Below are positions 5,310-26,703 of a DNA stretch of 36,091 bases, piece by piece. This DNA is from Candidatus Moranbacteria bacterium GW2011_GWA2_39_41 (GTDB lineage: Bacteria > Patescibacteriota > Minisyncoccia > Moranbacterales > UBA2206). The position numbers were made by a program, and so were the translations under genes. The notes beneath the pieces are model-generated. The model did not search any database, was not told the DNA's origin, and saw only the letters and a list, made by a program, of their open reading frames with translations. How positions within the stretch are numbered: position 1 is the first letter of the stretch; every line of letters begins with the position of its first letter. The DNA lies in assembly GCA_000995125.1 (NCBI GenBank), contig LBXA01000003.1, positions 1-36,091 of the forward strand. Direction: 5' to 3'.

Positions 5310-6630
5310 TAAGCTTTCTAAAAGCGCCATGTTTAATATATTCTTGTTGATACTTTTATACTTACCATTTCAATTGGCACTGAATCCAGTTAGCGGAGTT
5401 GATTTGGCGTCTATTCGTGTGCTAATTTTGGCATTATTTTTTGTTTGGTTGGCACAAGGACTAAAAAAGAAGAGCATCCAGTTGAATAATAATTTACAAA
5501 CCTGGCTCGTGGCATCTTTTTTATTTCTGAATTTATTTTCTGCGTTGGTAGCGAGAAATTCAGATTGGTCAGTGCGTAAGTTGTTGTTTTTGTTTTCCAT
5601 TTTTCCAATTTATTTTGTGGCGAGTCAATTGATTTCGAGCAGAGAGCGCTTGTACAAGGTTGTTAGAGTAATAGTTGTGAGTGCCTCAGGGATTGCTGTG
5701 ATTGGTATCGTGCAATTTTTATTGCAATTTGCAATTGGCTGGAAGAGTACCTTTGCTTTTTGGGCTAAGTTTGTGATAATGCCATTTTTGGGTAGCAGTT
5801 TCGGCGAAGCGGTGTTGAAAAACCCCAGCTGGCTAGTCAATATTGGCGGACAAACCTATCTGCGTGCCACGTCACTCTTTCCAGATCCGCATATGTTGGC
5901 TTTTTATTTGGGTTTGTCCTTGCCACTCGCCTTTTGGCTGATGTTGTACACAGACAAAAGAAAAAAACTAGCTATGCTGGGTTGTTGTTTGATTTTAATA
6001 GCAGATTTGTTGACTTTTTCTCGTGGTGGGTATATTGGGCTATCTTTCGGTTTGATTTTTGTGGGCATTTTCTTCTGGAAAAAAATAGAACACAAATATA
6101 AAATAGTGACAGCAGGTGTTTTGCTGGCGGGCTTGTTGATTATGCTGGTTCCATCGCCAATTTCACAGAGATTTGTGTCCAGTTTTGATTTACAAGAAGG
6201 TTCTAATCAGGGTCGATTGGCTATGTGGGAAAAAGCCACTGAAGTGATTGCTCAACATCCGCTTTTGGGGGTTGGCATTGGTAATTATTCGCTGGAAGTG
6301 AATCCAACAGCAACTTATCGCAACTCAATTTATGCCCATAACACGTATTTGGATATTGCTGTTGAAACGGGCATAGTAAATATGTTGGTTTGGCTGGGAA
6401 TTTTGTTGGTGACAGGTCTGGGCTTTTTACAAAAATCCAAACACGAAAATCTCTTCTTTTTCGGTGCAATTAGTTTAGTTATTTTTTCGGTGCATTCTTT
6501 GGTTGAAACGGCTATCTATTCTCCGGTGGTACTCACGCTATTTTTAATTATTATAAGTTTTTATAATGTAGAGACGAGGCATTGCCTCGTCTCTACGGGA
6601 CAGGCGAAACAAAATGAAAAAATTGTTTAA
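5302..6630 (+). CDS. O-antigen ligase/polymerase-like membrane protein
   Basis: The 442-residue polytopic protein has roughly 11-12 hydrophobic spans and the Wzy_C/WaaL-type signature: RATSLFPDPHMLAFYLGL in the middle, then SFDLQEGSNQGRLAMWEKA ... HPLLGVGIGNY ... NSIYAHNTYLDIAVETG (about 290-355). These proteins polymerise or ligate undecaprenyl-linked glycans outside the cytoplasmic membrane. Met10 is an alternative start. Residues 423-432 (VETRHCLVST) are encoded by a copy of the GTAGAGACG palindrome, which therefore forms part of the C-terminal tail; the original stop may have been displaced. It overlaps the next gene by 17 bp. Confidence 0.85.
   Translation: MFNKLSKSAMFNIFLLILLYLPFQLALNPVSGVDLASIRVLILALFFVWLAQGLKKKSIQLNNNLQTWLVASFLFLNLFSALVARNSDWSVRKLLFLFSIFPIYFVASQLISSRERLYKVVRVIVVSASGIAVIGIVQFLLQFAIGWKSTFAFWAKFVIMPFLGSSFGEAVLKNPSWLVNIGGQTYLRATSLFPDPHMLAFYLGLSLPLAFWLMLYTDKRKKLAMLGCCLILIADLLTFSRGGYIGLSFGLIFVGIFFWKKIEHKYKIVTAGVLLAGLLIMLVPSPISQRFVSSFDLQEGSNQGRLAMWEKATEVIAQHPLLGVGIGNYSLEVNPTATYRNSIYAHNTYLDIAVETGIVNMLVWLGILLVTGLGFLQKSKHENLFFFGAISLVIFSVHSLVETAIYSPVVLTLFLIIISFYNVETRHCLVSTGQAKQNEKIV
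6568..6596 (+). repeat. GTAGAGACG palindrome, copy 1 (in frame)
   Basis: A 29-bp palindrome with 14-bp perfect arms around one T, followed by G. It lies inside the 3' end of the first polymerase-like gene and is read in frame as VETRHCLVST. It ends 17 bp before the next gene's ATG, so an RNA hairpin here could influence translational coupling. Confidence 0.95.
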
Positions 6631-7801
6631 TCTAGAAAATTTTATATTTATTACTATAATTTGCATGCCGCTTTATTTAGTAAAGCTGACTATTTGGGGT
6701 GTGCCGACGAATATTTTTGAGCTGATGGCAATGATTGCAATAATAGTGTTCCTGAGTGGGTCTGTGGGCTCAAAAATTGAGTTGAGAGACTATAGAAAGT
6801 ACTTTGCACCCTTGATTGCTATAATTCTTGGATTGCTCATTTCAACACTCTACAATGGCGCCTATCGCGCCGGATTTGGCATAATAAAGAGCTGGTTTGT
6901 TGTTCCCGTTGTTTTTGCTTTTGTGGCAGTGGAAGTGTTGCACAAGACAAAAGAAAAAAATATATTAAACGCTATATATTTTTCAGCTTTGGGTGTGGCG
7001 TTTATTGCCATAGGCTATTTTTTCTCGGGAATAGTGACTTTTGATGGTCGTTTGCAAGCCATCTTCAACTCGCCAAATTATCTGGCTATGTTTTTGGTGC
7101 CAGCTATCGTGATTGGAGTGGCTAAATTTAATAAAAATAAGAAGTTTTATGTGCTTACTCTTCTGATTATATTGAGCGCGCTGTATCTAACATTTTCCTA
7201 TGCTGCTTGGCTGGCAGTAGCTGTCTCATTGATAGTCGTATTTTTTAAAAAAGAAGTAGAGACGAGGCACTGCCTCGTCTCTACGGAGATTTCAAAAAAA
7301 CTTTTTTGGGCAGCACTTGTTGGTTTGTTGATTATTTTTTTGCAGATGGGCTCTGATAAAATGCAAAATCTAATGCATATGGACAGCAGATCATCATTAG
7401 CATCACGCGTGATGATTTGGCACTCAGCTGGGAAGATAATCGTTGATAATCCAATAATGGGTATTGGTCCAGGTAATTTTCAAAATAAGTATTTAGAATA
7501 TCAAAAATACTTCCCGCCATATTTGGAATGGGCAGTGCCTGAGCCACATAATATTTTGCTGGCTTTTTGGTTGCAGGCTGGAATCTTTGGACTGATTGGT
7601 TTTATGTGGTTGATAATTCAGTGGCTTAGAGATTTGATTAAAAGAACTGATGGCGTGGCTAGTATTGGCATAGCGATTATGGTAGGCATTTTGATTCACG
7701 GACTTTTTGACACAACGTATTTTAAAAATGATTTAGCAGTTGTGTTTTGGCTGGTTATCTTCTCAACAATAAAAAATCGCTCCAGCATATTGGAGCGATA
7801 A
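6614..7801 (+). CDS. O-antigen ligase/polymerase-like membrane protein
   Basis: The 395-residue polytopic protein is a second Wzy/WaaL-like enzyme in tandem. It shows the periplasmic-loop signature DSRSSLASRVMIWHSAGKII ... NPIMGIGPGNFQ ... PEPHNILLAFWLQAGI (about 255-325). Residues 215-224 (VETRHCLVST) are encoded by a second copy of the GTAGAGACG palindrome and lie in a short loop between two hydrophobic spans (after VVFFKKE, before SKKLFWAALVGLL), a site where an insertion is likely tolerated. The last codons (RSSILER) are also the stem of the terminator that serves the convergent minus-strand operon. One of the tandem pair may be the polymerase and the other a ligase; sequence does not tell which. 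Confidence 0.85.
   Translation: MKKLFNLENFIFITIICMPLYLVKLTIWGVPTNIFELMAMIAIIVFLSGSVGSKIELRDYRKYFAPLIAIILGLLISTLYNGAYRAGFGIIKSWFVVPVVFAFVAVEVLHKTKEKNILNAIYFSALGVAFIAIGYFFSGIVTFDGRLQAIFNSPNYLAMFLVPAIVIGVAKFNKNKKFYVLTLLIILSALYLTFSYAAWLAVAVSLIVVFFKKEVETRHCLVSTEISKKLFWAALVGLLIIFLQMGSDKMQNLMHMDSRSSLASRVMIWHSAGKIIVDNPIMGIGPGNFQNKYLEYQKYFPPYLEWAVPEPHNILLAFWLQAGIFGLIGFMWLIIQWLRDLIKRTDGVASIGIAIMVGILIHGLFDTTYFKNDLAVVFWLVIFSTIKNRSSILER
7256..7284 (+). repeat. GTAGAGACG palindrome, copy 2 (in frame)
   Basis: A 29-bp palindrome differing from copy 1 only at the central base (C for T), again followed by G. It is read in frame as VETRHCLVST within the second polymerase-like protein, in a predicted inter-membrane loop. 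Confidence 0.95.
7771..7798 (-). terminator. Rho-independent terminator of the secretion-like operon
   Basis: A perfect 8-bp stem (TCGCTCCA / TGGAGCGA) with a 6-base loop, followed on the minus strand by six T residues. It lies 8 bp beyond the stop of the last minus-strand gene and inside the coding end of the convergent plus-strand gene, so one sequence encodes a peptide tail on one strand and a terminator on the other. Confidence 0.85.
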
Positions 7802-7806
7802 TGAAC

Positions 7807-8952
7807 TTATAATGAAATGCGATAGAGCTTGCCATCTATTTTATTCAAGAAAAATAGCATGCTTTCATCGGAGTTAAGAAATAAGTTAGTGGCATCATAT
7901 GCCTGAGTTATTTTGTCTAGGTCAACTAGGCGAGTTTTTTCTCCGGTTGTTGTGTTCACCATCCAGAAGGTGTCATTGGTGGTAATTTTGTGAGTATTGT
8001 AATCATTTGGCATTGTAGCATCACTTGGAATGGATCCCGGCAATGCATAATAGATGTTTTTATTGTTTTTAGACCACGCACATTTAGAGACCAATGTTGG
8101 AATGCCAAGCGTTTTATATTCTCCTCCTGAATTATTCATAATTCCAAGTTGCATTTTCAGGCCACCAGATGTTTCTACACTACTTTCGAGCAACATATTG
8201 CCATCAGAACTCCATAGATAATCAGCGCCAAATTTTTCGCTAGCTATAGTTTTCAGTTCACCGCCAAAAATTGGCACGGATTGCAAAAGCGTTTTATTGA
8301 ATGAATCCGGTTTGCTCCAAAAAGAAATCAAACCTGTTTTTGGAATGGCTGCGATAGAAATGTTTTTTAGAGTAAGGTTAATAATTTTTTCCCAATTTGA
8401 TCCATCCGGATCAGCAATGTTTAAGGTTCTTTCTTTGGTTTTGGGATTAAAATATTTGTAGATTATTTTATTATTGCTTTGCCAAGTGACGGTATCCAAG
8501 TTGTCTTTTAATTGTACACCTTTATTTTGTGTATAGTCATAATAAAAGAATTTGGAGGACAGACTGTCAATAGGGAATGTTGAGATAACCCGAGACCTAT
8601 CCGATGACCAATTGATGCTGGAAAGATTCACCAGCTCTCTGTTGGAAATAGATCGAGTAGTGTTATTTGAAATGTTTAGTTCAAAAGCTTTTCCAGTAGC
8701 TTTGGAGTAGTATTTAATGGCATTTCCATCGGCTGAAAGAGTCGGCGATATAATTGCTTCATCGGTTAGCGCTAGGATTGTTGGGCTTTTGGAGGCAACT
8801 ATATCTGTTATTGCAGTGGTGTCAGACAGAGTGTTTATAGCTGAATCTAGCGAAGCAGGCTTTTGAAAGGAAATAATATAGACGCCCCAAAGAAGTAAAA
8901 TTACAAGAAGAATAATGGAGGAGGTTAAAAAAATTTTTTTAGCTAATGACAT
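7807..8952 (-). CDS. Membrane-anchored beta-propeller-like protein
   Basis: The 381-residue protein has an N-terminal membrane anchor (about 5-29) and a large extracytoplasmic part. Repeated strand patterns (ISPTLSADGNAIKYYS, NWSSDRSRVIST, YLWSSDGNMLLESS, CAWSKNNKNIYYAL, LFLNSDESMLFFL) resemble the blades of TolB/WD40-type beta-propellers, usually protein-interaction platforms. It is the last gene of the long minus-strand operon, 18 bp after the M15-fused pilin gene, so a structural or scaffolding role in that envelope machine is plausible but inferred. No enzyme motif was seen. Confidence 0.7.
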   Translation of the reverse strand: MSLAKKIFLTSSIILLVILLLWGVYIISFQKPASLDSAINTLSDTTAITDIVASKSPTILALTDEAIISPTLSADGNAIKYYSKATGKAFELNISNNTTRSISNRELVNLSSINWSSDRSRVISTFPIDSLSSKFFYYDYTQNKGVQLKDNLDTVTWQSNNKIIYKYFNPKTKERTLNIADPDGSNWEKIINLTLKNISIAAIPKTGLISFWSKPDSFNKTLLQSVPIFGGELKTIASEKFGADYLWSSDGNMLLESSVETSGGLKMQLGIMNNSGGEYKTLGIPTLVSKCAWSKNNKNIYYALPGSIPSDATMPNDYNTHKITTNDTFWMVNTTTGEKTRLVDLDKITQAYDATNLFLNSDESMLFFLNKIDGKLYRISL

Positions 8953-8970: not shown

Positions 8971-9777
8971 TTATTTATTGACATGAAAAGAGGCGCTGGT
9001 CATTGTGGCATAAGTTTTGCAAGGAATTCCTTTGGCCGTAAAAGGCGCGCAGTTATTGCTTTCGTAGGTATATGAGCTAAATCCAGCTGCCTTGAGTGCA
9101 TCAGATAATATTTTTACATCATTTATATTAGCGCCACTACCAGCAATCAAATTGACATCGGCACAAGTTCCATTTGTGTGACATGAACTAGCATGATTGA
9201 CTGTGGGTGGCCAAGGCTCAGTTATTCTCCATGAAGCAGAGCTGTTGACTGTTTTTAGCTTTGCAATAAGTTCTGAATTTAAATAACACGGAGTTTCTTT
9301 GCAAGTCAAATCAGTTACTTGATGACAATCAATGCAAGCAGCGCACTTAGTGTTTGGTTTGCAATCTGCTGGCACGCCAGGCGTACCAGGTGCAGTCGAA
9401 GCCGTCGGTGACACAGCTGGCGCACGCAACTTAACTAAATTCGGATTAATTTCATATAACAACAAATAAGAAACTAAAGCTAAAATCAAACCAATGATAG
9501 CATCGGTAATCACAGCCTTAGCTTTCTCGGCGCTAGCCACATTAGCTGCTGACATAATATACATGTAACCACCAATAGTTATCATGAGTAGTGCGGAAAC
9601 TCCAACTGCCCAAATCCCAAACTTGTAAACCGCGGAGATATAGCTATAAAAATTATTCTCTGGAGTAAATCCAGGAATCTGTTCCATCGGCGCATAATTA
9701 AAACTCGCCGCTAGAGTTAGGGCTGGAAAGATTAGCAGAACAAGAATAACAATGGATAGAGAATATTTGTTTTTCAT
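8971..9777 (-). CDS. VirB2-like pilin fused to M15-type peptidase domain
   Basis: The 268-residue protein has a signal peptide (about 1-24), then a VirB2/TrbC-like module with two membrane helices (about 52-75 and 90-109) joined by a short basic turn (SAEKAK). A Thr/Pro-rich linker leads to a Cys-rich C-terminal domain (about 139-268). That domain carries SWRIT, SSCHTNGTCADV with His200 and Asp207 at the H-x6-D spacing of M15/VanY-type zinc peptidases, and a late SFHV (His265) that fits the third ligand. M15 enzymes cleave peptidoglycan peptide bridges or D-Ala-D-Ala. The pilin half is nearly identical to that of the gene at 10492. The hydrolase call rests on motif spacing only. Confidence 0.75.
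   Translation of the reverse strand: MKNKYSLSIVILVLLIFPALTLAASFNYAPMEQIPGFTPENNFYSYISAVYKFGIWAVGVSALLMITIGGYMYIMSAANVASAEKAKAVITDAIIGLILALVSYLLLYEINPNLVKLRAPAVSPTASTAPGTPGVPADCKPNTKCAACIDCHQVTDLTCKETPCYLNSELIAKLKTVNSSASWRITEPWPPTVNHASSCHTNGTCADVNLIAGSGANINDVKILSDALKAAGFSSYTYESNNCAPFTAKGIPCKTYATMTSASFHVNK
9392..9715. repeat. Duplicated pilin module, copy A
   Basis: This DNA is nearly identical to 10961-11288 in the same orientation. It covers the mature pilin region of both fusion genes and stops at the linker and at the signal peptide, where the sequences diverge. Most remaining differences are synonymous. This suggests a recent duplication or ongoing gene conversion restricted to the module. 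Confidence 0.9.
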
Positions 9778-9798
9778 TTTTTATTTTGAGAGACGGGA

Positions 9799-10488
9799 TT
9801 ATTTGCGTATAAATTTTTTGTACAAGACAAAAAAAATAATCGCGCCGAGAGCACTTCCTAATAATATTAACATACTTAGTGGAAATGTTGATGTTTGTGG
9901 AAGCGGCTTGGTTGGCACGACAGCTGACTCATTGGCGGACTTTTCTTTGTTAGAGATGGCAACCGTTTCATTGGTGCTGTCTAGTATATCTAGTGTTTGC
10001 TGACTGAATTTTGGCTGAGCAGTTGCGCAATCCTCTAGACAATTTTGGGCTGATTCTTTTTTTTCATATTCACAAATACCATTGCCATTGCAGGTTGAAA
10101 ATTTTGATAAATCAGCATTGAGCAGTTCTTTATTGGTGGACTTTTCAAAGACTTGTAGGCTATAGGCTAGACTGAAATAAGGAATGTTCAAACTGAAAGC
10201 CCCATCTTTTTTTTCAAATTCAGTCGAGACAATTTCACTGCCAGTTGTATCGTAAAATCTCAATATATATGCGCCAGTTGTAGGTTGCTGAGCGAACTCC
10301 AAGATAGAGATGTCAACGCTTTGACTGTAGGACACTTTTTCTGAAACCTTATTGTCGAAAGTCAGCGCCTTAGTTGCCGGATTATAATATAGATTAACAA
10401 TAAAACCATCCGCTCTTGCAGTTAATAACTCAACATTAAATAATGCAGTAAGGAGTAGTAGGAATAGTACAAAAAAAGTCTTTCTCAT
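9799..10488 (-). CDS. Exported, C-terminally anchored protein with Cys/acidic motif
   Basis: The 229-residue protein has a signal peptide (about 1-26), a beta-rich ectodomain, the motif CNGNGICEYEKKESAQNC followed by LEDC (about 135-155) and a C-terminal membrane helix (about 203-224) ending in KKFIRK. The Cys/acidic motif resembles the CGDGxCxxxE...C..DC calcium-binding-like segments seen in many archaeal and bacterial surface proteins. The topology is an extracellular domain anchored by its C-terminus. It sits between the two pilin-hydrolase fusion genes (3 bp and 21 bp spacing), so it probably works with them. I do not recognise a family. Confidence 0.75.
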   Translation of the reverse strand: MRKTFFVLFLLLLTALFNVELLTARADGFIVNLYYNPATKALTFDNKVSEKVSYSQSVDISILEFAQQPTTGAYILRFYDTTGSEIVSTEFEKKDGAFSLNIPYFSLAYSLQVFEKSTNKELLNADLSKFSTCNGNGICEYEKKESAQNCLEDCATAQPKFSQQTLDILDSTNETVAISNKEKSANESAVVPTKPLPQTSTFPLSMLILLGSALGAIIFFVLYKKFIRK

Positions 10489-10491
10489 TTT

Positions 10492-11346
10492 TTAAAGATT
10501 ACACGTTTTATAATAATTGGTTACTTTGGGTCCATACCAGGCATTCTTGTGACAATCACCATTATTCGGTCCACCATTATAACAACAGCCAACACGGGAA
10601 ATTTCTGTTGTGCCACATTTCCCGGATTGGTTTTTTATCAGCCAAGCGGCGCAATTTATGTCCAAAGTAACATCATTTTGAATTTTAACACACGTTTCAC
10701 TGGGTGTGCCACTTATGCCACAAGCAGTTCTGATGCTGGGTAATGCCTGTGAATAGCCGCAAGATCCAAAACCATCACTTGACACGCTTTTATTGCAACC
10801 TTCGCCACCTGTCACAATGGACTTCAAAATTGATGAGTTGATAGAAGAAGAGTTGTTGAGGCAGGCAGAATTGACTTGATTGCAAGTTCCATCACAAAGA
10901 GCAGGTGTTCCAGCTCCACCCGTCGTAGTCCCACCTGATGCCGTAGTCGTCCCGCCTTGCGCAGTCGAAGCCGTCGGTGACACAGCTGGCGCACGCAACT
11001 TAACTAAATTCGGATTAATTTCATACAAGAGTAAATAAGAAACTAAAGCTAAAATTAAACCAATAATAGCATCAGTAATAATCTCTTTAGCTTTCTCAGC
11101 GCTAGCTACATTGGCTGCTGACATAATATACATGTAACCACCAATAGTTATCATGAGTAGTGCGGAAACACCAACTGCCCAAATCCCAAACTTGTAAACC
11201 GCGGAGATATAGCTATAAAAATTGCCACTAGTAGTAAATCCCGGAATCTGTTCCATCGGCGCATAATTAAAACTCGCCGCTAAAGCTAGGGTTGGGAAGG
11301 CGAATGATGCAAGTATAGCAATAATGAATATTTTTTTTCTGTTCAT
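10492..11346 (-). CDS. VirB2-like pilin fused to SLT-type lytic transglycosylase domain
   Basis: The 284-residue protein starts with a signal peptide (about 1-24) and the same two-helix VirB2/TrbC-like module as the gene at 8971. A Gly/Thr-rich linker (about 125-148) follows, then a Cys-rich domain with transglycosylase features: a helix ending in TGGEGC (candidate catalytic Glu182), GSCGYSQALPS (the GxxQxxPS-type motif, about 195-204) and GCCYNGGPN (the AYNxG motif, about 253-262). This is a VirB1-like peptidoglycan-cleaving domain joined to a pilin, whereas VirB1 and VirB2 are normally separate proteins. Ten or more cysteines suggest disulfides outside the membrane. Enzymatic activity is inferred. 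Confidence 0.8.
   Translation of the reverse strand: MNRKKIFIIAILASFAFPTLALAASFNYAPMEQIPGFTTSGNFYSYISAVYKFGIWAVGVSALLMITIGGYMYIMSAANVASAEKAKEIITDAIIGLILALVSYLLLYEINPNLVKLRAPAVSPTASTAQGGTTTASGGTTTGGAGTPALCDGTCNQVNSACLNNSSSINSSILKSIVTGGEGCNKSVSSDGFGSCGYSQALPSIRTACGISGTPSETCVKIQNDVTLDINCAAWLIKNQSGKCGTTEISRVGCCYNGGPNNGDCHKNAWYGPKVTNYYKTCNL
10961..11288. repeat. Duplicated pilin module, copy B
   Basis: Partner of 9392-9715 in the same orientation, with long identical tracts across the mature pilin segment. The genes share no obvious similarity in their hydrolase domains. Confidence 0.9.
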
Positions 11347-11381: not shown

Positions 11382-14069
11382 TTAACGAGGGCTTTGTTTT
11401 GGAAAAAACGAAAATATTATGTTAGTCGTAGCTAAAATTAATATAATAGTTAGCGCTATTCTTAAAAGAAAACTAATATAAGTAGGTATTTCTGCAAATA
11501 GACTAGCTAAAACTTTTTGTTTAGGGGTTCTAGTGCTTGCAATCATTTCCCCAGCGAGTTGATTTGTTACTTTAATATTGATTGAGTTTCCAACAGGTTT
11601 TTCATAAAAAGCTGTTGCCGGAACATTCCATATATCATACAAAGCTTTTTTGGTAGTCTTTGGCTGGGTATATAAATCCCCTATTTCAACAGAATATGAT
11701 TCTCCAATCTTTTTGTCAGCTATGAAGCTGAGCTCGCCAGTACTTGTCAAGCTAGCTCCCATTTCCGGTGCGTTTGCAGACGTTATTGCAACTCCGTCAA
11801 GAAACCAGGAAAATGTATTAGAGGAAGAATAATTGAATGTTGGTTTTAGAGTAACCATTTTTCCTTGAAGCGCCGCAAAGCTGTCAGCGCTATAATCTGG
11901 CCACAATGAATTATTGTCTGTATCAGGGTTAGGGTTTTTATTTATTGGATCGACATAATGTCCCAAAAGAATTGGCGCACAAGAGCTCATATCAGCAGAG
12001 CTTATAGTGACTGTTGGATTGGTGACCGCAAAAGTTTTAGTTAGAGTGATTTTTTCGGCTGAATTTTTATTCAAAGCATCTAGGGTAACTGTATATCGAG
12101 TGCCTTGGTTTTGTAGTATGGGAAAGTAAGCAATGCTGGGATCAGAAGCATTTTGTTGTAAGGATGTGCCGTTTAGTGACCAGATAATATTGTATGTGCT
12201 AGGATTGATGTCAGTTTTCATGCCGACAATTTCATTTTTAACAACGGGGCAAATAATTTTTTCAACCCCATCTTTACAGCGCTCAAGACTAGCTGGAGTA
12301 TCAACAAGGCTTATGGCGGAAGCGTCAGAAACAGCAACAGGAAAAATTTTAATTGTATTTGCAGAATTATAAATAGGGATGATAATAGATTTTACACCTT
12401 CTTTTTTGACTTCCCCGGCGATGATTTCCTTAGCGCGCAAAGTTACCTTGATATAAAATGTATTAGGTTGATTGTCGAAGGCCAATTTTATTTTTAAGGA
12501 TGATAAATTAATACCGGATGTTTGGCTTGCGATGCTTTTTTTTGTGGCGGAGTTCATTGCAAGAAATTCACTTGACATAGAATCTGCTGGCTCTGAAATT
12601 GTCCAATCATAATTTATAAAAGCAGCGTTTTCAATATTTAAGATAGATGATTGAATGGATAGTTCATTAGAATTGTCGCTAGAAACACCATTCATCGGCG
12701 TGGTTGGTAAATAAGATAAATCTATAGTCATATTTTTGTCTGAATTTCCTTCAGCAGGGTCAATAAGATTGGATTCCAGACAGTCATTTAAATCAAAATC
12801 AGAGCTTACGGTTAGAGTTTGATCCGTTGGAGCAGCTTCACTGGGATTGGGATAACGAGTATTATCATCATAAAAAAGATTAATTTCATCTCCGGAAAAT
12901 GGTTCATTAGCAGAATTTACCCATTCTGGTGTTGTGGTTGTATCATCATAAGCCACATCATCATAAGCGCCAGTAAAAGAATTATAATGATATTTTTGTG
13001 TATGAACAACGATAGTTTTGCTTGTAAGTACGGCTATACCAGGAGCATAGCCAGTTTTAACAACATAGTCACCAGTAGAATAGTGATTAGTGATGGTGGT
13101 TGTGGTTATAGTTTTTTCTTGAGTATCTGGGTCAATGCTGGTTGTTTGTGTTTGCGTAGAATCATCAGTGGGAATTCTTTCAGTAGTATCTACTTCACAA
13201 GTGTTTTTTGGCATAGCCCACATAGTTTTGTAGGAAGCGTCAGCATAACTAGTTGGCTCGATTGAAACACCTTCAACCGCGACTCCAACTTGGTCACCTG
13301 AAATGTATGTCCAGCTGAAAGTATTTTTACCCAGTCCAACGACGGCAGCCTCGTCGAATGTGCCTGTATTGGTAGTATCGCTAGAGTTTGGATTAGTATG
13401 CCAAAATTTTTCTTCATCCAAGTTAAAGTGATCATCCCCAGTTTCTTCTTCTGGCGCATTTGGAAAAAGATGTTTGCAGGTTGGGAGTTCACTTTCATCA
13501 CCTGTTTTAACATTATGAATAAAACAATGTTCTCGTTTGTTGCGTTGATCGTCTCCACCAAAAGCAGACCTATAACCATCTGAATCAGTATGCGCCGCAT
13601 AGTTATCTACATCTTCTCTATTCCATTCAAAATTACCACTTGCAATTAGTCGCATAGCAGCAATCTTATAATCCTCAATGTTTATACGTCCATCATCATT
13701 TAAATCATCATTGCCGTGTCCATCTCCACCGCCAGCATTATTATGCTTTAAATACCATGTAAAATATAATTTAGTAGTATCATTCATGAAATAGGAAGGA
13801 GAGGCGGCAGCGGTTATTTCTGAGCCAGGAACAGGGCTGGCTGGGGTAAAGGATAGTGAAACTTGAGGCGGAGTCTTTTTCTGACGCGAAACATTCATTA
13901 CTTGAATATTGTTTTTTAGTTCAGTCTGATTGACGCCGAGACTGCTCATAATTTGTTCTATGGCTTCAGCGGGAGATGGATAACTAAAGCCAGCGAAAGC
14001 ACTTGGGGTGGCAAGAGAAAATATGATGCTGGAAACTAAAATGATGAGAGAGAGTTTTTTAATGCGCAT
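11382..14069 (-). CDS. Large exported surface protein with dockerin-like motif
   Basis: The 895-residue protein has a signal peptide (about 1-26), a long beta-rich ectodomain with several Ig/PKD-like stretches (for example TPPQVSLSFTPASPVPGSEITAAAS), and a C-terminal membrane helix (about 868-889) followed by KQSPR. DDLNDDGRINIEDYKIA (about 121-137) is a good single match to a dockerin/EF-hand calcium loop. It is probably displayed outside the cell and anchored by its C-terminus. It is encoded in the secretion-like operon directly before the pilin-hydrolase gene (35-bp gap), so it may form the outer part of the machine or an adhesin exported with it. The family is not recognised. Confidence 0.75.
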   Translation of the reverse strand: MRIKKLSLIILVSSIIFSLATPSAFAGFSYPSPAEAIEQIMSSLGVNQTELKNNIQVMNVSRQKKTPPQVSLSFTPASPVPGSEITAAASPSYFMNDTTKLYFTWYLKHNNAGGGDGHGNDDLNDDGRINIEDYKIAAMRLIASGNFEWNREDVDNYAAHTDSDGYRSAFGGDDQRNKREHCFIHNVKTGDESELPTCKHLFPNAPEEETGDDHFNLDEEKFWHTNPNSSDTTNTGTFDEAAVVGLGKNTFSWTYISGDQVGVAVEGVSIEPTSYADASYKTMWAMPKNTCEVDTTERIPTDDSTQTQTTSIDPDTQEKTITTTTITNHYSTGDYVVKTGYAPGIAVLTSKTIVVHTQKYHYNSFTGAYDDVAYDDTTTTPEWVNSANEPFSGDEINLFYDDNTRYPNPSEAAPTDQTLTVSSDFDLNDCLESNLIDPAEGNSDKNMTIDLSYLPTTPMNGVSSDNSNELSIQSSILNIENAAFINYDWTISEPADSMSSEFLAMNSATKKSIASQTSGINLSSLKIKLAFDNQPNTFYIKVTLRAKEIIAGEVKKEGVKSIIIPIYNSANTIKIFPVAVSDASAISLVDTPASLERCKDGVEKIICPVVKNEIVGMKTDINPSTYNIIWSLNGTSLQQNASDPSIAYFPILQNQGTRYTVTLDALNKNSAEKITLTKTFAVTNPTVTISSADMSSCAPILLGHYVDPINKNPNPDTDNNSLWPDYSADSFAALQGKMVTLKPTFNYSSSNTFSWFLDGVAITSANAPEMGASLTSTGELSFIADKKIGESYSVEIGDLYTQPKTTKKALYDIWNVPATAFYEKPVGNSINIKVTNQLAGEMIASTRTPKQKVLASLFAEIPTYISFLLRIALTIILILATTNIIFSFFPKQSPR

Positions 14070-14869: not shown

Positions 14870-15430
14870 TTAGGCGACTTGTTGTTCCGTTCTGGTTGTA
14901 AATTGCGGATTTTGAGCAGACTTTTTTTGTCGATCGGCAGTGGCTTTCGCTTTTTCTTCTTCGGCTGCTTCTTTTCTTTCGGTTAATGTCATCCAAACAA
15001 TGATTATCACAACTAGCGACTCTATGGGCAAGATATCTATTCCAGGAATATATTCAACTAGCGTAGCGCCAACAAGCAGTGCAACTTTTTTGGCTATCGT
15101 TTTGGCTAGCTTTGTTTTCCCAGAGGAACCAGTCAGTAATATTACAAAACCAATAACTAGGGAGCAAATAGTTGTTAATATAAAAATCAATACTGCGCCT
15201 ATACCGCCAGCGGCAATGAGTGCGGTATTCACTAAATCTAAAATATCTTTAATGATGGCGAATATTAGCGCAATTGCGAATAGCCAATCCATAAAAGGAT
15301 CAATATAAGTCATTAGCGAAATAGCATTTGTTGCTGCTTTTAGGTTATTTCGCACCTTACTGGCTGAATTTTTAAAAGAACCAGCTTGCGCAGACTTCAG
15401 ATTGTTAGAATGTCGTTGTTCGTCTGACAT
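14870..15430 (-). CDS. Membrane protein of secretion-like operon
   Basis: I place the start at MSDEQRHS (residue 36 of the track ORF) because the longer ORF runs back into the VirB4 coding region. This start lies 7 bp after the VirB4 stop. The 186-residue protein has a polar N-terminus, hydrophobic segments at roughly 40-60, 68-100 and 120-150 of the shortened form, and a charged Ala/Glu/Lys-rich C-terminal tail (TERKEAAEEEKAKA). No family is recognised. Its place directly after VirB4 suggests an inner-membrane component of the same machine. Confidence 0.75.
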   Translation of the reverse strand: MSDEQRHSNNLKSAQAGSFKNSASKVRNNLKAATNAISLMTYIDPFMDWLFAIALIFAIIKDILDLVNTALIAAGGIGAVLIFILTTICSLVIGFVILLTGSSGKTKLAKTIAKKVALLVGATLVEYIPGIDILPIESLVVIIIVWMTLTERKEAAEEEKAKATADRQKKSAQNPQFTTRTEQQVA

Positions 15431-15437
15431 ATTTTTT

Positions 15438-17273
15438 TTATTCTTCATCATCAAAATCTTTCTTAGCTTGTTCAATTTCCAATAGTTGAGATGGGTCAGT
15501 AGTGATAACCTGGTCTTCGCTATATGACGCCACAACCTTAATAGCTACATGCTTAGTGCCGGCAAAGAAAATTCCTTCACCAACATTGCTTTCGAGTAAC
15601 AAAAATTTTTCCTGATCAGTCAGATAGAATGTGTCGGCAATCACATCAATGGCAGCTGGAGATTGTTTCAGCAGAAGCTGGATTGATGAGTTGGTCACAA
15701 TCGGCTTGCCATAACGTGAAGAGAGAAAGTCATTTACATCCTGCGTAATGGTGGTAAGTCCAGTATAATATTTTCTGCATCTTTTTGCAATTCCAAAGAG
15801 GAAAGAAGCAGCATCATCAGATTGCATCATTATCCAAGCCTCGTCCACAATAACCATTCTTTTTTTAATGTTGGTGCGCATTTCGTTCCAAATAAATTGT
15901 AAAATAATATACATGGCGATTGGACGCAACTCATCTTCCATATCACGAATGTTGAAAACTACCAATTTATTATCAGACTTAATATTGGTGATGTTATTAA
16001 GGAAACCAGCGAAAATTCCTTCGGTATATTTTTCTAGTCGAATAGCTAAATCTTCACTGCCATCCATATTGCGCAAAACTTGGTAGAGGTCAGACATTGT
16101 TGGGTAGGCTTCTTTAGGAAGTTCATTGAAGTTAGTTTGCTCGGTAATATCGCGAATAGCATAGGTTTCGTGAACTGCGCGGTCTAGGATTGAATCTTCT
16201 TCGGGAGTGATGCCGCCAAGCATTAAATGCAAAAGTCCAAGTAATCCTGCAATGTTATTGCGTAAAATATCCCCGGGATCTTCGTCATCAGCAATTTTTG
16301 GTAAATCAAATGGATTTATATGATTAGTGGAATTCAAAGATATTTTTATAAAAGCTCCTCCTACAGCGTCACAAAGATGTTTGTATTCATTTTCCGGGTC
16401 AATAATAATAATATTCGTGCCAACCATTAGAGATCGTAAAATTTCCAATTTAACCGTATAGCTTTTTCCACCTCCAGATTTGGCAAAAACAATCATATTG
16501 GCATTTTCCATTTTGAAGCGGTCAAACAAAACTAAGCTATTATTATGTCGATTGATACCATATAGAATACCCTCATCATTTGAAAGGCTGGAGGAAATAA
16601 ATGGAAAAGTTGTGGAAAGTGGCGCAGAATTCATATTGGTTCCAATGTTCAATTCATCATTGGCTAGCGGAATTGTTGAATTGAAACCTTGTTCAGTTTT
16701 GAAAATTGCTGGTTTAATATAAACTAGCTGAGCTTCTAGAATGGATTCGATGGCGCGCGTGGTTTTGTCCAATTCTTTTTCATCAGCACCATAAATAGTG
16801 ATGTATAGTCCAAAACGGAAAAATTTTTCCGTGCCTTGTTGCAGTTTGTCACGCAATTCATCAATGTCTTGCATTGCAGTTTCCAAGGAAGGGTCACGAA
16901 TCATACTATTTTCTTGTTCAATATGTATCTGTGATTGGACTTGAGTGGCGCTTTTTCTCAGTGTTTTTAGGATATCAACGGTTTCAATTGGATGTACAAA
17001 CATAGAGATGTCAATGGACATATCAATATTGATGATAGGTGAAAACCAGTTGCTATTTAGATAGCGAGGATAAGAGATGATAAAAATTGTGCGGGCTATG
17101 GTTTCACCCAATTGAATTGACTTAGGCAAAATCTTAATAGCCGCAGGAGCTAAAAGATCATGTAGCTTAGCTACACCCTCTTGATAATACTTTTCGGATT
17201 CAATCACGTCATCAAGATTTACGGGATTTTTTGATTGAGTCGTTGCATTTTTTTTGTTGAGAAAATCAAACAT
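15438..17273 (-). CDS. virB4: VirB4-like type IV secretion ATPase
   Basis: The 611-residue protein is the energy-supplying AAA+-like ATPase of type IV secretion systems. An N-terminal VirB4/TrbE-type domain (about 30-230) is followed by a Walker A motif in AKSGGGKSYTVK (GGGKS 267-271), a DPENEYKHL segment (about 292-300), a Walker B motif VIVDEAW (474-480) and a later TITQDVNDFL stretch with the usual Gln. It would sit at the cytoplasmic face and drive pilus assembly or substrate movement. It is encoded 16 bp after a VirB4-head-like gene. No VirB11 or VirD4 coupling ATPase is in the window, so the system is either minimal or completed elsewhere. Confidence 0.93.
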   Translation of the reverse strand: MFDFLNKKNATTQSKNPVNLDDVIESEKYYQEGVAKLHDLLAPAAIKILPKSIQLGETIARTIFIISYPRYLNSNWFSPIINIDMSIDISMFVHPIETVDILKTLRKSATQVQSQIHIEQENSMIRDPSLETAMQDIDELRDKLQQGTEKFFRFGLYITIYGADEKELDKTTRAIESILEAQLVYIKPAIFKTEQGFNSTIPLANDELNIGTNMNSAPLSTTFPFISSSLSNDEGILYGINRHNNSLVLFDRFKMENANMIVFAKSGGGKSYTVKLEILRSLMVGTNIIIIDPENEYKHLCDAVGGAFIKISLNSTNHINPFDLPKIADDEDPGDILRNNIAGLLGLLHLMLGGITPEEDSILDRAVHETYAIRDITEQTNFNELPKEAYPTMSDLYQVLRNMDGSEDLAIRLEKYTEGIFAGFLNNITNIKSDNKLVVFNIRDMEDELRPIAMYIILQFIWNEMRTNIKKRMVIVDEAWIMMQSDDAASFLFGIAKRCRKYYTGLTTITQDVNDFLSSRYGKPIVTNSSIQLLLKQSPAAIDVIADTFYLTDQEKFLLLESNVGEGIFFAGTKHVAIKVVASYSEDQVITTDPSQLLEIEQAKKDFDDEE

Positions 17274-17289
17274 AATTGATAATTGAAAA

Positions 17290-17970
17290 TTATTTTAGCT
17301 CTAGTTCTTCGACGTTTCCAATTTTAGTATCCATAAAAATACTTGGATTGTAGGAATTATACATTAATTCAATTAGCTCTTGAGTTTTGAGCGGTGTCAT
17401 ACGGGCACCGATACCAGAAAGTGAGGTGGAAATGTGATCAAGTCTTTGAAACAGTTGATTTTTGTAGGTTTCGAAATCCTCTCTTTTGTGTAGGATATCT
17501 TTTCTAGCGCTGCTAAATAGATTGCCTAAAAAACTTTTATCTTTATTTTCAACTGGAGCAAATGGAATGATTATATAAAAGCTTTTGTCTATAATATTAG
17601 AAACAGAAACTAATTGGCGAATGAAGTTTTTGTATTCATAAATCTGTAAACGCAAGAGTTCGCTATCTTGTTCTTTTTCCTTTTTTTCTATATATGTAAT
17701 GTATTTATTAATATTCATGCGACGGGAACTGATGAGGATCTGAATGGGAAAGTCTAGGGAATTTAAGAAATTTTGATATTGGTTGATGATACCTTCTTGT
17801 TCAATAGATGATTTCAAATCAAAGTTGATGGCGGATACTGCCAAAACTGCACGTAAAGATCCACTTTTGAGTATGATGACATCTTCCTTAATTTCAGCAA
17901 TATCAAGAAATTGTTGGCTAGCAGTAGTAGCGGTGGGTTTAGTTAATTTCGATGAGTTTAAGGTTTCCAT
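17290..17970 (-). CDS. TraC/VirB4 N-terminal-like protein
   Basis: The 226-residue soluble protein resembles the N-terminal head domain of TraC/VirB4-type proteins: FLDIAEIKEDVIILKSG ... LRAVLAVSAINFDLKS ... YQNFLNSLDFPIQILISSRR (about 22-105). It has no Walker motifs. Its start codon overlaps the PrgI-like stop codon by one base (TAATG), and it lies 16 bp before virB4, so the three products are almost certainly made together. A plausible role is a separate subunit linking the PrgI/VirB3 membrane protein to the VirB4 ATPase; this is inference from position and weak similarity. Confidence 0.7.
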   Translation of the reverse strand: METLNSSKLTKPTATTASQQFLDIAEIKEDVIILKSGSLRAVLAVSAINFDLKSSIEQEGIINQYQNFLNSLDFPIQILISSRRMNINKYITYIEKKEKEQDSELLRLQIYEYKNFIRQLVSVSNIIDKSFYIIIPFAPVENKDKSFLGNLFSSARKDILHKREDFETYKNQLFQRLDHISTSLSGIGARMTPLKTQELIELMYNSYNPSIFMDTKIGNVEELELK

Positions 17971-18368
17971 TATTTTCTGATCTCTAATAGTTTACTTATA
18001 TCTTCAATTTTTTGACTGGAGAGTTCTTTTCTGGCGACAGTAGCAGATATTTGTGGCTGAGTGGGTTTAGCAATGTGGCGTGTGTCCGCTACTCTTCTCC
18101 AGATGTACATTTTTGGTTTAGTGAAAAAAGAAACAGCGGACAATAGAAATATAATGAGTGGTTGTCCGTGTGGCTTGAAAAAAGCTAGCGCGCCAAAAAT
18201 CAAAGTTAGAATTATGGCAATAAATATGAATAGTGATGTATCCAATATACCCCAAGCCAATAGTAGAATTACACCTTCAATTGCAAACCAGCCCAATTGT
18301 TTGGCAGTTAGTGGGCCGACAATTTTGTCTTCTATGTCGATAAATTGTGGGACGTTGAACATGCTCAT
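17970..18368 (-). CDS. PrgI-family (VirB3-like) membrane protein
   Basis: The 132-residue protein begins with the family hallmark VPQFIDIEDKIVGPLTAKQLGW, followed by two adjacent membrane helices (about 28-65) and a basic KPHGQP turn, then FFTKPKMYIWRR. PrgI proteins of Gram-positive-type conjugation systems correspond to VirB3 and associate with VirB4. The C-terminal 40 residues are polar. Met3 is an alternative start. The gene is one base from the next ORF (TAATG overlap), and the 80-bp AT-rich gap upstream separates it from the hypothetical gene before it. Confidence 0.88.
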   Translation of the reverse strand: MSMFNVPQFIDIEDKIVGPLTAKQLGWFAIEGVILLLAWGILDTSLFIFIAIILTLIFGALAFFKPHGQPLIIFLLSAVSFFTKPKMYIWRRVADTRHIAKPTQPQISATVARKELSSQKIEDISKLLEIRK

Positions 18369-18448
18369 AAACTTGAATTTTCAATTACCAATTTACAATT
18401 TTCAATGAATTTCTAATGTTTAAATATTCAATTATTCAAAAATCAAAA

Positions 18449-19531
18449 TTATTGTTCTCTCAAATTTACCACATTTTTCCCCAATGCCCTAGGGTCTGGT
18501 CTGTTTTCAACTGGTTGTGGGCGGGTCTGAGGGGCTGGTGTGATTCGGTATGGCTGATCTTGCGGAATATCTTTTCTTTCGTAGGCTAATTTTTGCGGAG
18601 AGGAAAAACTGATTTTGTTGTTGAGTGATGGTGTTTTCGAAATATTGCGGGTTTCAAGGTTCAACCTTGATGGTGCTTGAGCGTTCTCTAAAGGTTGAAC
18701 CTTTACATCGCTTTCACTAAACATAATTTTCTTCGAAACTTTATCCACCGTAACCATACTCTTTTCATCAAACGCTTTCAAAATATATGACAATTTTTCT
18801 CGATCATTTGAATTTAATAATTTGGCGTTTTCGCTGTGAAAAAGGAAATTGACGCGAGCCACTGAGTTGTGTTTGTCATAACCCAAAACAGCTGTGTAGT
18901 CAGCCAACCAGTTCTTGATAGATGGTCGCACTGGTTCTGGGAAGTTCAATATTTTGATGCGTGCGGTAGTAATGGTTTGCTCGCCCAATTCTGGATAAAT
19001 CCTGATTGCATTAGCTAACGTCTGATTTTCAGTTGTTATGGGAGCATTTTTTAAATTGACAGCATTATTTTGAGAAACAGCATGGTTAGTTGTTGACAAG
19101 ATATTGGCTTTAGATAAAATCTGATTATTGACAGCGCTAGCAATTTGGTTGGCTTGGGATGAATCAATATTTAAAGTGTTTTGTAAAAGTGTTTCCAATT
19201 CAAGCCAATTTTTGTTTTTGCAAATTGCCCACACGATTTGTGGGAGATCATCTCTTTGTTGTTGATTCAATGCAAATTTTTTGGCCAAATCATTATAGAA
19301 AAGTGTGTTTTCAAAAGACAACAAGAAATCGATCAAGGCTGGATTCATTGAAACAACGGAATTTGGAAAAATTTGTGCATGTGCATAAGCTTTTTGCCAT
19401 TTAGCCAACAATTCTTTCTTAATTTCTTCAGTGCCCTCAGCAATGCGCTTTTTTTCCGACTCCAAGTCATACTCGACATATTTTTTCGAGTCATTTTGGG
19501 CGCTATAATTTTGATTTTGATAAACTGTCAT
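18449..19531 (-). CDS. Hypothetical cytosolic protein of secretion-like operon
   Basis: The 360-residue protein has no signal peptide or membrane span. An N-terminal charged helix (SEKKRIAEGTEEIKKELLAKWQKAY, about 25-50) precedes a helical domain, a Gln/Asn-rich linker, and a compact domain around 195-275 (LNFPEPVRPSIKNWLADYTAVLG ... LSYILKAFDEKSMVTVD). The last 85 residues are Pro/Gln/Arg-rich and probably disordered. Residues encoded by 18656-18704 (VQPL ... SRLNL) coincide with two AAGGTT palindromes, possibly an in-frame repeat insertion. No family is recognised. Position in the operon suggests a cytosolic partner of the export apparatus. Confidence 0.65.
   Translation of the reverse strand: MTVYQNQNYSAQNDSKKYVEYDLESEKKRIAEGTEEIKKELLAKWQKAYAHAQIFPNSVVSMNPALIDFLLSFENTLFYNDLAKKFALNQQQRDDLPQIVWAICKNKNWLELETLLQNTLNIDSSQANQIASAVNNQILSKANILSTTNHAVSQNNAVNLKNAPITTENQTLANAIRIYPELGEQTITTARIKILNFPEPVRPSIKNWLADYTAVLGYDKHNSVARVNFLFHSENAKLLNSNDREKLSYILKAFDEKSMVTVDKVSKKIMFSESDVKVQPLENAQAPSRLNLETRNISKTPSLNNKISFSSPQKLAYERKDIPQDQPYRITPAPQTRPQPVENRPDPRALGKNVVNLREQ
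18656..18704. repeat. Paired AAGGTT-AACCTT palindromes inside a CDS
   Basis: Two near-perfect palindromes (AAGGTT-C-AACCTT at 18656-18668 and AAAGGTT-G-AACCTTT at 18690-18704) flank a 21-base spacer. They are in frame within the hypothetical protein at 18449-19531, at its predicted disordered C-terminal part. Confidence 0.65.
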
Positions 19532-19541
19532 ATGATATTTT

Positions 19542-19568
19542 GTTATTCCGGACTTAATCTGGAATCTA
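19542..19568 (+). repeat. Short GTYATTCC...GGAAT palindrome, copy A
   Basis: ATTCCGG and CTGGAAT arms form an imperfect hairpin. The 27 bases align with the reverse complement of 35552-35578 (both of the form GTYATTCC-N-GAC ... ATC-N-GGAATCYA). It lies just upstream of the start of the 18449-19531 gene, in the intergenic part of the operon. Confidence 0.6.
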
Positions 19569-19609
19569 CTTCGATTAACTCCCTGATTTTGTATTTTGGA
19601 ATTATTTGT

Positions 19610-20008
19610 TTAAAACTCAAATGCGTTGCGATTGTCTTTGATGTATTGAATTACATTTTTAACTCTTTGTTGATGTTGTGCGTTGTTATCAGTTGATTCA
19701 TCTAGATTCTTAGATATTTCTAGGGCCTCCTTGATTTTATAGGATGTTTGAATAGTTTCAACTAGCTGTTTTTTGTAGACGGTAGGTGCATGTTTAGCGA
19801 TATATTCAACCTGTTTGTAGCTTAATCCTGCTAAGGCTGCAGGAAAAGAAAATGTCCATGCTGTAGATAAAAGCACCGTATTATCATTCAACATGCTTAT
19901 GTATATAGCTAATTGTTTTTTTGATTGAACATTATTTTGAGGGAAGTAGATGAATGGAATCGTGGTTTTCTCAAAAAAATCGCTCAAGTGATCATCAATT
20001 GTTTGCAT
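19610..20008 (-). CDS. Hypothetical small cytosolic protein
   Basis: The 132-residue protein has no signal peptide and no clear membrane span. It is largely helical, with FIYFPQNNVQSKKQLAIYI at the N-terminal third, a hydrophobic FSFPAALAGLSYKQVEYIAKHA middle and a charged Asn/Gln-rich tail (STDNNAQHQQRVKN). No family is recognised. It lies 16 bp after the VirB6-like gene and 78 bp before the next minus-strand gene, so it belongs to the secretion-like operon by position. A chaperone-sized helper is possible but unproven. Confidence 0.6.
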   Translation of the reverse strand: MQTIDDHLSDFFEKTTIPFIYFPQNNVQSKKQLAIYISMLNDNTVLLSTAWTFSFPAALAGLSYKQVEYIAKHAPTVYKKQLVETIQTSYKIKEALEISKNLDESTDNNAQHQQRVKNVIQYIKDNRNAFEF

Positions 20009-20024
20009 ATTTTTTTTTAATTAA

Positions 20025-21881
20025 CTATATATCAGTGTGCGTATTTCTTAGGGATTTTACATTATCACGTACATTTTTGATTTCCTGAGTGACAATATTT
20101 TCCATGGTTCTTTGATATAGTTCAGTTCGTTTAGCTGTTTCTGCTTGAGCATGAGCATTTGCAACAGAATAGCTCCATTCCGATGTTCCAGATATTAGAT
20201 TAGCTGATCGAGCAGTATTTTCAGCTGCTATACGTAGACTAGTTTGTGTGGCAGGATCATTAACCTCACGATCAACTGTACGATTGGCAACTGTAATTAA
20301 ATCAGTATTGTTTTGTAGTGTGTTTTTCCATTCATCCATTTTGGCTGGATCGGATAATAATTGTTTGGCATGTCCAGCATATTTCACGGCCGCAGACTTG
20401 TCAGTTCTAGCTCTATTGATATTGGCTGGGTCATCAAGGTGTGCGGTAAGCGTGTTGGTTGTCTCAGATTCAAGTCCTTCTGAAGCTTTTTTAGTGTCTT
20501 CATCGAAACTTTTTTTAGCAGTATCTTTTTTAGCATCTTTCCATCCCTTAGGCCCCTTTATAAGAAATCCTTTAATTCTGTCTTCAGTAGCTTCTGTTTT
20601 TTCTGATCCACGTAAGCCAGGAATTTTACCAAGAAATCCTGGAGCACCTTTCTTATTATAGTGATCCATGGTTTTTTTGAATCCACCAGGGATTGACGTA
20701 GCTTTCCATATACTAGTCCCAGTGCCTTTTGCAAAATTTTGTGCCTTGCCAACTACAGCTGATGCGCCTTCAATGCCCATCTTTTGGGCGATGCCCATGC
20801 CCATCCAGAGAATGACGAGTGGAATCGAAAATTGAGCCATAGCGGTTATGACATTATCTCCTTGCGCGCCAGTGGCTAGTTTGGAAGCCTCGCCCATAGC
20901 TTTCATTGTTGAGATGGCAATGTGTAGGACAAACACCATAATGGGACCAAAGAAAGCATATTTGAAAAGTTTATCCCAAAATCCAATACTATCTTTGCCC
21001 ATTATGGATTCTACAAAAGCCACCGGAGAAGCAATGATGAGAATTGCTAGGGCTACAACTCTGATCAAAAATAAGACAGCCATTGCCAGGAAAGTGAGAG
21101 CTAGTATAAAAACAAAAATAATTGATGCAAATAATTGAGAAAATGAAGGGTCTCCGATAGGATTTAGGATGTCTTTTATGCCTGTGGACTCACTTATACT
21201 AGTAAGGATTGCTTGCGGATTGTCGGCATTGGCTGGAAAAAACTGAAGCAGTAGTGTGTACATCAGGGAATTGGAAGCATCAATTACAAAACGAGTAATT
21301 GGAAAGCTAAAATTAACCAACAGCGCCATCAGGACAATGGTCAAAATAATTTTCTTTTCTCCAAATTTTCCACCGACTTGAAAAATAATAGAAAAAGCTG
21401 AATAAAGTAAAGCTAAGATGAAGAAAATGTTGATAAAGTCACGAACCTCAGTCCAAACAGTATAAATTGCGGGATTAGAGATAACAGCGCTAAGTTTGTC
21501 AGCATCAACTACCCAACCAAACATCATAGCTGCTGCGGATAGAAGCCAGCCAACCATTTCTAAAATCCCTAACAAAATACATTTAGGTAAGTTAAGCGGG
21601 TTAAGACATGATATGGTGTTCCTGGATTTGTCAGGGGGCTTTACTCCACCATGAGACACTTCCGCTACAGTTTTAGTTGGATCAAGTGCTATTGTGGAAA
21701 TTGCATTTTCAGGTGATTTAATAGCTGATACAGTAGATGGTGTGGGATTTTCTGTCTTGAGAGCTTCATTAAAACCAACAGCTTTTACATTAAGGGTTAC
21801 ATCAAAAAACAAAAAACCAGCAAATAGGATAAATATTGCTAAAAATAAGGCAGATATTTTCGGAGTGTTTTTTTTGTGCAT
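20025..21881 (-). CDS. VirB6/TrbL-like polytopic membrane protein
   Basis: I start at MHKKNTPK rather than the track GTG seven codons upstream, because this gives a normal basic N-terminus and signal helix (618 residues). After the first helix comes a linker, then about six to seven further spans between roughly 105 and 375 (ILEMVGWLLSAAAMMFGW, FINIFFILALLYSAFSIIF, IILTIVLMALLVNF, a long pair around LFASIIFVFILALTFLAMAVLFLIRVVALA, YAFFGPIMVFVLHIA). This matches the VirB6/TrbL channel-core family. The C-terminal 230 residues are soluble and charged. It is the likely membrane channel of the machine, encoded between the VirB5-like gene and the small hypothetical. Confidence 0.85.
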   Translation of the reverse strand: MHKKNTPKISALFLAIFILFAGFLFFDVTLNVKAVGFNEALKTENPTPSTVSAIKSPENAISTIALDPTKTVAEVSHGGVKPPDKSRNTISCLNPLNLPKCILLGILEMVGWLLSAAAMMFGWVVDADKLSAVISNPAIYTVWTEVRDFINIFFILALLYSAFSIIFQVGGKFGEKKIILTIVLMALLVNFSFPITRFVIDASNSLMYTLLLQFFPANADNPQAILTSISESTGIKDILNPIGDPSFSQLFASIIFVFILALTFLAMAVLFLIRVVALAILIIASPVAFVESIMGKDSIGFWDKLFKYAFFGPIMVFVLHIAISTMKAMGEASKLATGAQGDNVITAMAQFSIPLVILWMGMGIAQKMGIEGASAVVGKAQNFAKGTGTSIWKATSIPGGFKKTMDHYNKKGAPGFLGKIPGLRGSEKTEATEDRIKGFLIKGPKGWKDAKKDTAKKSFDEDTKKASEGLESETTNTLTAHLDDPANINRARTDKSAAVKYAGHAKQLLSDPAKMDEWKNTLQNNTDLITVANRTVDREVNDPATQTSLRIAAENTARSANLISGTSEWSYSVANAHAQAETAKRTELYQRTMENIVTQEIKNVRDNVKSLRNTHTDI

Positions 21882-21927
21882 AATGGCAGATAAAAGCAAC
21901 ACGTTTTAGTAGTCTAAATTATAATCA

Positions 21928-22974: not shown

Positions 22975-22980
22975 GGTTGT

Positions 22981-26674: not shown

Positions 26675-26703
26675 GTAGAGACGAGGCACTGCCTCGTCTC
26701 TAC
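26675..26703 (+). repeat. GTAGAGACG palindrome, copy 5 (intergenic)
   Basis: A 29-bp palindrome identical in sequence to copy 2, 22 bp upstream of the rsmA start codon. Within the rsmA leader it could form a hairpin that affects translation. Confidence 0.92.

Follow-up and report, generated by a model that had tools for sequence, protein, structure and literature searches.

Among the known systems closest to the proteins described here is VirB1 of diderm T4SSs, a GH23/SLT domain of lytic transglycosylase (LT) type that serves the T4SS as a separate soluble periplasmic protein. Gram-positive T4SSs rely for the same job on a membrane-anchored hydrolase that is a protein of its own and has one or more domains (PMC12857230). 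TraG of pIP501, PrgK of pCF10 and Orf14/CwlT of Tn916, which belong to monoderm-type T4SSs, hold both the glycan-cutting and the peptide-cutting activity in one protein, with an SLT/muramidase domain and a CHAP/NlpC-type domain on a generic anchor. Patescibacteria encode VirB2-like pilins (PF18895; NF045849, the Mbov_0395 family) with a signal peptide, two hydrophobic helices and a gene near virB4. A 2025 survey of Patescibacteria T4SSs counted these by PF18895, as plain pilins, in about two thousand assemblies and counted VirB1 separately, in few; the sections of that survey cited here infer that the Patescibacteria pilus does not require VirB1 and contain no mention of pilin–hydrolase fusions (PMC12102498). 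In the literature searched on pilins and transglycosylases in Patescibacteria (supplements, preprints and subscription papers lay outside the search), the fusion is undescribed. An initial annotation of the present locus stated that the pilin and the hydrolase are as a rule two different proteins, in agreement with the cited sections of PMC12102498 and PMC12857230.

The window analysed here comprises 36 091 nucleotides (positions 1–36 091 of contig LBXA01000003.1) from Candidatus Moranbacteria bacterium GW2011_GWA2_39_41. Its named relatives are chiefly Candidatus Moranbacteria/Moraniibacteriota, a group of little-known ultrasmall bacteria that are probably host-dependent. Two intact ORFs on the minus strand, each running from ATG to stop, encode fused pilins: the 10492 gene (10492–11346; 284 aa), predicted to join a pilin to a domain of LT/lysozyme type, and the 8971 gene (8971–9777; 268 aa), predicted to join a pilin to a metallopeptidase-like (LAS/M15/hedgehog-like) domain. 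Between them, on the same strand, lies the gene for a secreted 229-aa protein (9799–10488) that carries a sortase-type signal (LPQTS, a TM segment and KKFIRK) and has a counterpart in two of 79 related loci; sortase anchoring of this protein was dropped as a candidate, since the genome (70% complete) contains no Pfam sortase. The fusion genes are flanked on the minus strand by genes for a secreted PKD-like protein with a C-terminal TM segment (11382–14069; 895 aa; similar ORF in 33 of 79 loci) and for a PD40/WD40-like β-propeller membrane protein (7807–8952; 381 aa; similar ORF in 57 of 79). Only 3–35 bases separate neighbouring genes among the five between 14069 and 7807, which by position form one operon.

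This operon is located downstream of a T4SS block on the same strand (14870–24012). The block encodes VirB4 (15438–17273; NF045971, E = 8e-111), a TrsD-like protein (17290–17970; TrsD, E = 4e-7), PrgI/VirB3 (17970–18368; PrgI, E = 7e-11) and a VirB6-like polytopic protein (20025–21902), named from topology and position without a family match, together with a 221-aa TM protein, proteins of 360 and 132 aa and secreted proteins of 348 and 343 aa. The genome, which is about 70% complete, also encodes Mur ligases and penicillin-binding proteins, so that the cell has a wall of its own to be crossed or cut. Plain pilins are encoded on other contigs.

Elsewhere in the window, a 29-base palindrome, GTAGAGACGAGGCANTGCCTCGTCTCTAC, occurs in four copies (6568–6596, 7256–7284, 26321–26349 and 26675–26703), three of which lie in frame inside unrelated genes, including a KsgA-like gene, and add V-ETRHCLVST to the product. 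The genome contains eight copies with at most two mismatches, and the reversed control gave none. The palindrome resembles a small mobile element whose insertion into coding genes may be tolerated.

Each fusion begins with a signal peptide (residues 1–24), encoded at 11275–11346 in the 10492 gene, with a hydrophobic segment at residues 4–27 and an ALA-A cleavage-like end, and at 9706–9777 in the 8971 gene, with a hydrophobic segment at residues 3–30. The VirB2-like pilin module follows (residues 25–117), at 10996–11274 with two TM helices in the 10492 gene and at 9427–9705 in the 8971 gene. In both genes the architecture is a signal-peptide-like helix, two hydrophobic helices and a Lys-containing loop, and both predicted structures place the helices of the module at residues 43–76 and 80–110. 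Residues 23–131 of the two proteins are 94.5% identical (91% in DNA, with 14 of the 20 differing codons synonymous), whereas the signal peptides and tails differ. The initial annotation had already pointed to a near-identical two-helix VirB2-like module with a signal peptide and to different, Cys-rich tails, and both features are borne out. Its text also described the two kinds of tail correctly, but its test line gave them in the reverse order: the 10492 gene carries the transglycosylase-like tail, and the M15-like one belongs to the 8971 gene. A single-sequence Pfam search matched PF18895 with E = 5e-5 (10492 gene) and E = 0.0025 (8971 gene); the scores of the window proteins (23.6 and 18.3 bits) compare with a curated cut-off of 26.6, which is exceeded by close relatives at loci L040 (27.5) and L046 (26.7), and the pilin modules of locus L195 reach 44–45 bits. 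The signal peptide, two hydrophobic helices and short basic loop are VirB2-like, as is the context, on the same strand as the VirB4/VirB3/VirB6-like block. VirB2 has both termini outside; as this topology and the positive loop put both ends outside, the tails would be extracytoplasmic.

The tail of the 10492 protein (residues 151–284; 10495–10896, minus strand) contains Glu182 (codon 10801–10803), GYSQ at residues 197–200 (within GYSQALPS) and Tyr-Asn at residues 256–257 (within CCYNGGP), and its close clade of five sequences retains the Glu, the GYSQ and the Tyr. A Pfam search with the window tail itself returned no direct match, and the SLT family (PF01464) matched two of the five clade sequences weakly (best E = 0.0019). 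Comparison of the clade with SLT-positive pilin fusions by hhalign gave E = 1.2e-9 (probability 96), with the catalytic Glu and GxxQ invariant in both clades. These sister fusions match Pfam SLT at E = 2e-16 and, among PDB entries, LtgC, EmtA, Slt70 and MltC with E values down to 3e-15; a PDB profile search started directly from the window clade gave no match, and it was the sister clade that provided the link. The top 18 PDB matches of the predicted structure are all LTs, lysozyme-like chitinases or i-type lysozymes; the match to Slt has a probability of 1.00 with an E value of only 0.06 (whole chain searched) and that to leech destabilase, an i-type lysozyme, a TMt of 0.62. All fold searches used full-length models of moderate confidence (pLDDT 67 and 72 for the two proteins). 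Taken together, homology and the predicted fold firmly place the 10492 tail in the lysozyme/lytic transglycosylase superfamily, where it may act as a transglycosylase or as a hydrolytic lysozyme, and the initial proposal of an LT-like domain, made from the same motifs, holds. The arrangement of Cys residues and the matches to destabilase make a strict i-type lysozyme a candidate identity, for which Pfam gave no support.

The tail of the 8971 protein (residues 159–268; 8974–9303, minus strand) carries the predicted zinc-site residues His200-x6-Asp207, Glu239 and His265 (minus-strand codons 9178–9180, 9157–9159, 9061–9063 and 8983–8985, respectively). Across 21 pilin fusions His200, Gly203 and Asp207 are invariant and His265 nearly so, and Glu239, in a YES sequence, aligns with the glutamate of the hedgehog YES. 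The first His of the HxH motif, which is frequent in LAS enzymes and found in most sister fusions, is replaced by Ser263 (in SFHV). Some active M15 enzymes likewise lack HxH. The Pfam M15 profile does not match the window clade of this tail. Searched against the PDB, the profile of this clade found only hedgehog N-domains (E = 1.2), with the zinc site in register, and a second clade of peptidase-type pilin fusions independently matched hedgehogs only (E = 0.08). With the full-length model, Foldseek returned the Indian hedgehog N-domain (E = 2e-3, probability 1.00) as the sole convincing match. Hedgehog N-domains and bacterial M15 peptidoglycan peptidases have a common zinc site, as described in the cited sections of PMC6027127 and PMC8052667. 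The 8971 tail has the HxxxxxxD…E…H constellation of the M15/LAS metallopeptidases and hedgehog N-domains as well as the fold match, and differs from them in its fusion to a pilin, its Cys-rich character, a two-Cys insertion between Glu239 and His265 and the absence of HxH. When the profiles of the two peptidase clades were compared directly, the match was not significant (probability 4%), so that the case for a common origin is made only by the motifs they share and by hedgehog being the best fold for both. We regard the tail as a probable LAS/M15-type (hedgehog-like) metallopeptidase domain, an assignment weaker than that of the LT tail; because Ser263 stands in place of the first His of HxH, activity as a peptidase is likely but not secure. 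From the earlier M15-like label, the H-x6-D…H spacing stands, together with a LAS/hedgehog-type fold; a Pfam M15 match and the HxH motif are absent.

The distribution of such proteins was surveyed in 55 genomes from 11 families, mainly of the window's family and order. At least 39 of the 55 genomes, in eight of the 11 families, encode a pilin module joined to a tail of LT, lysozyme-like or M15-like type; the loci listed were counted by hand with family models from the present analysis, so that the figure is partly circular, with Pfam confirming several cases. Other genomes thus carry the fusions, and the initial annotation's caveat of a sequencing or joining artefact is ruled out by the recurrence of the architecture in about 40 independent assemblies: the fusions are genuine. 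In 79 loci from named genomes, the 102 pilin ORFs include 26 plain pilins, 16 with LT tails and 20 with M15-like tails; the other 40 bear different tails, including some of lysozyme-like type. In more distant Patescibacteria, VirB4 is encoded within 4 kb of the matching pilin ORF in 22 of these loci and TrsD in 17. LT and M15 profiles found no stand-alone LT or M15 ORF in the 79 loci; a stand-alone VirB1 at the locus, considered as a candidate, was rejected on the same profiles.

Pfam alone places pilin and SLT in one ORF at loci L036 (E = 2e-16), L038, L042 and L164 (E = 9e-15), and it identifies a pilin–DUF2272/CHAP-like fusion at L085 (3923–4876; E = 3e-17) and a pilin–Amidase_2 fusion at L103. 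At L195 (genome G094, contig C33, 44500–51500) a pilin–SLT–Amidase_2 protein of 606 aa is encoded near a pilin–SLT–GDSL esterase protein of 702 aa; these multi-part wall-cutting pilins belong to a genome outside the window's class. PF18895 occurs in 109 of 116 genomes across the phylum, mostly as short plain pilins (most of those sampled have 93–160 aa), and most SLT domains across the phylum are free of pilin fusion. Since plain pilins and unfused SLT domains dominate the phylum, the fusion is a trait of particular lineages. T4SS_pilin modules also lie inside giant reading frames of 3312 aa (G125:C1:86515), 1588 aa (G060:C86:11220) and 1243 aa (G076:C1:505966). In the genome of the window itself, the only Pfam SLT match is on another contig (G000, C30:3675–3977; L115), unfused to a pilin; its gene, of SH3-like/SLT type, contains an internal TAG and is either a pseudogene or the product of an assembly error.

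Fusions of both kinds, glycan cutter and peptidase, lie at a single locus in the window and at L036, L038, L042, L044, L055, L057, L060, L067, L068 and L072, the glycan cutter of L060, L067, L068 and L072 being of lysozyme-like type, assigned by motif only. In all seven pairs with the same module type, the window included, the modules within a locus are 95–100% identical, compared with 73–89% for the best module match in any other genome. Loci L067, L068 and L072 share both kinds of tail (75–78% identity between genomes for the M15 tails and 44–71% for the lysozyme-like tails), and the duplication therefore predates their split; module DNA is nevertheless 85–96% identical within each genome versus 76–81% between genomes. 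The module alone is evidently homogenised, by gene conversion or an equivalent process, and evolves in concert. Homogenisation of this kind points to a common partner in docking or assembly to which both proteins have to fit, and the pattern, as read from these sequences, is that of one conserved socket and several tools.

We therefore propose that the two proteins are VirB1–VirB2 fusions that place wall-cutting enzymes at a chromosomal, monoderm-type T4SS of a Moranbacteria-like cell, a reading to which we assign a probability of roughly two in three. After removal of the signal peptide, the two-helix pilin module would remain membrane-embedded, both of its ends facing outwards, and dock at the T4SS (VirB6/VirB4/VirB3) as VirB2 does, leaving the C-terminal tail to hang in the wall right at the machine. 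The 10492 tail would cut the glycan strand and the 8971 tail the stem peptide or cross-link, and jointly they would open the wall, presumably the cell's own for the most part, to admit the channel or pilus. That such pairs recur in other genomes favours this joint function of a glycan cutter and a peptide cutter, and the homogenised module common to both proteins means that they can use the same docking site. Given the ordinary pilins on other contigs, the fused proteins may serve as anchors and take no part in any pilus. The arrangement would differ from that of diderm VirB1 in that the LT-type domain is part of the pilin polypeptide. TraG, PrgK and Orf14/CwlT resemble it in membrane anchoring and in the combination of glycan and peptide cutting, here predicted; in contrast to those proteins, the predicted activities are split over two proteins with near-identical pilin modules and a LAS-type peptidase replaces CHAP.

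The outward C-terminus of VirB2-type topology would also allow the tails to be displayed on an extracellular T4SS pilus. A modular drilling pilus, in which a conserved pilin socket carries exchangeable heads with matched glycan and peptide cutters for a host wall, is a doubtful possibility, and the broader idea that fused pilins within or capping the pilus act as weapons, cutting the wall of a host or neighbour for attachment or delivery, we consider unlikely. The lifestyle of the phylum is in keeping with it: the cited part of PMC12206443 reports an episymbiotic lifestyle for every cultivated member of the Patescibacteria, and the T4SS with its pilin array is essential for epibiotic growth of Ca. 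S. epibionticum (PMC10633639). Strong tail variation between near relatives (amidase, CHAP, GDSL) would be expected if target walls differ, and homogenised modules within a genome would be expected of co-polymers. Against it, a tail of 110–170 aa on each subunit would crowd the filament unless the fusion were a minor subunit. Methanogenic archaea have no murein, which also counts against weapons of this kind. Some Paceibacteria parasitise such archaea (PMC10936435).

The module might instead be a reused two-helix membrane anchor that holds hydrolases for wall growth or division with no tie to the T4SS, as the long tails of other kinds on 40 of the 102 ORFs, the frames of up to 3312 aa and the spread of PF18895 over nearly all genomes sampled would allow; its conserved position beside T4SS genes, and a degree of module conservation and concerted evolution that exceeds the needs of a generic anchor, make this improbable. 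Loss of catalysis in one or both tails, which would then serve in wall binding or adhesion by analogy with hedgehog, where the fold persists with no proven peptidase role, would suit the hedgehog N-domains as best matches of the peptidase tail and the Ser263 replacement, but is hardly credible when Glu182, GxxQ and Tyr-Asn in one tail and His200/Asp207/His265 (with Glu239) in the other are retained across wide divergence.

If the fusions do act as VirB1–VirB2 proteins, the missing VirB1 enzyme would sit on the pilin itself in one large group of Patescibacteria, and the parts list would change for a machine that is essential to epibiotic growth in a cultured relative. The tails are small, concrete and testable domains, and could tell whether it is the cell's own wall or that of a host that is opened.
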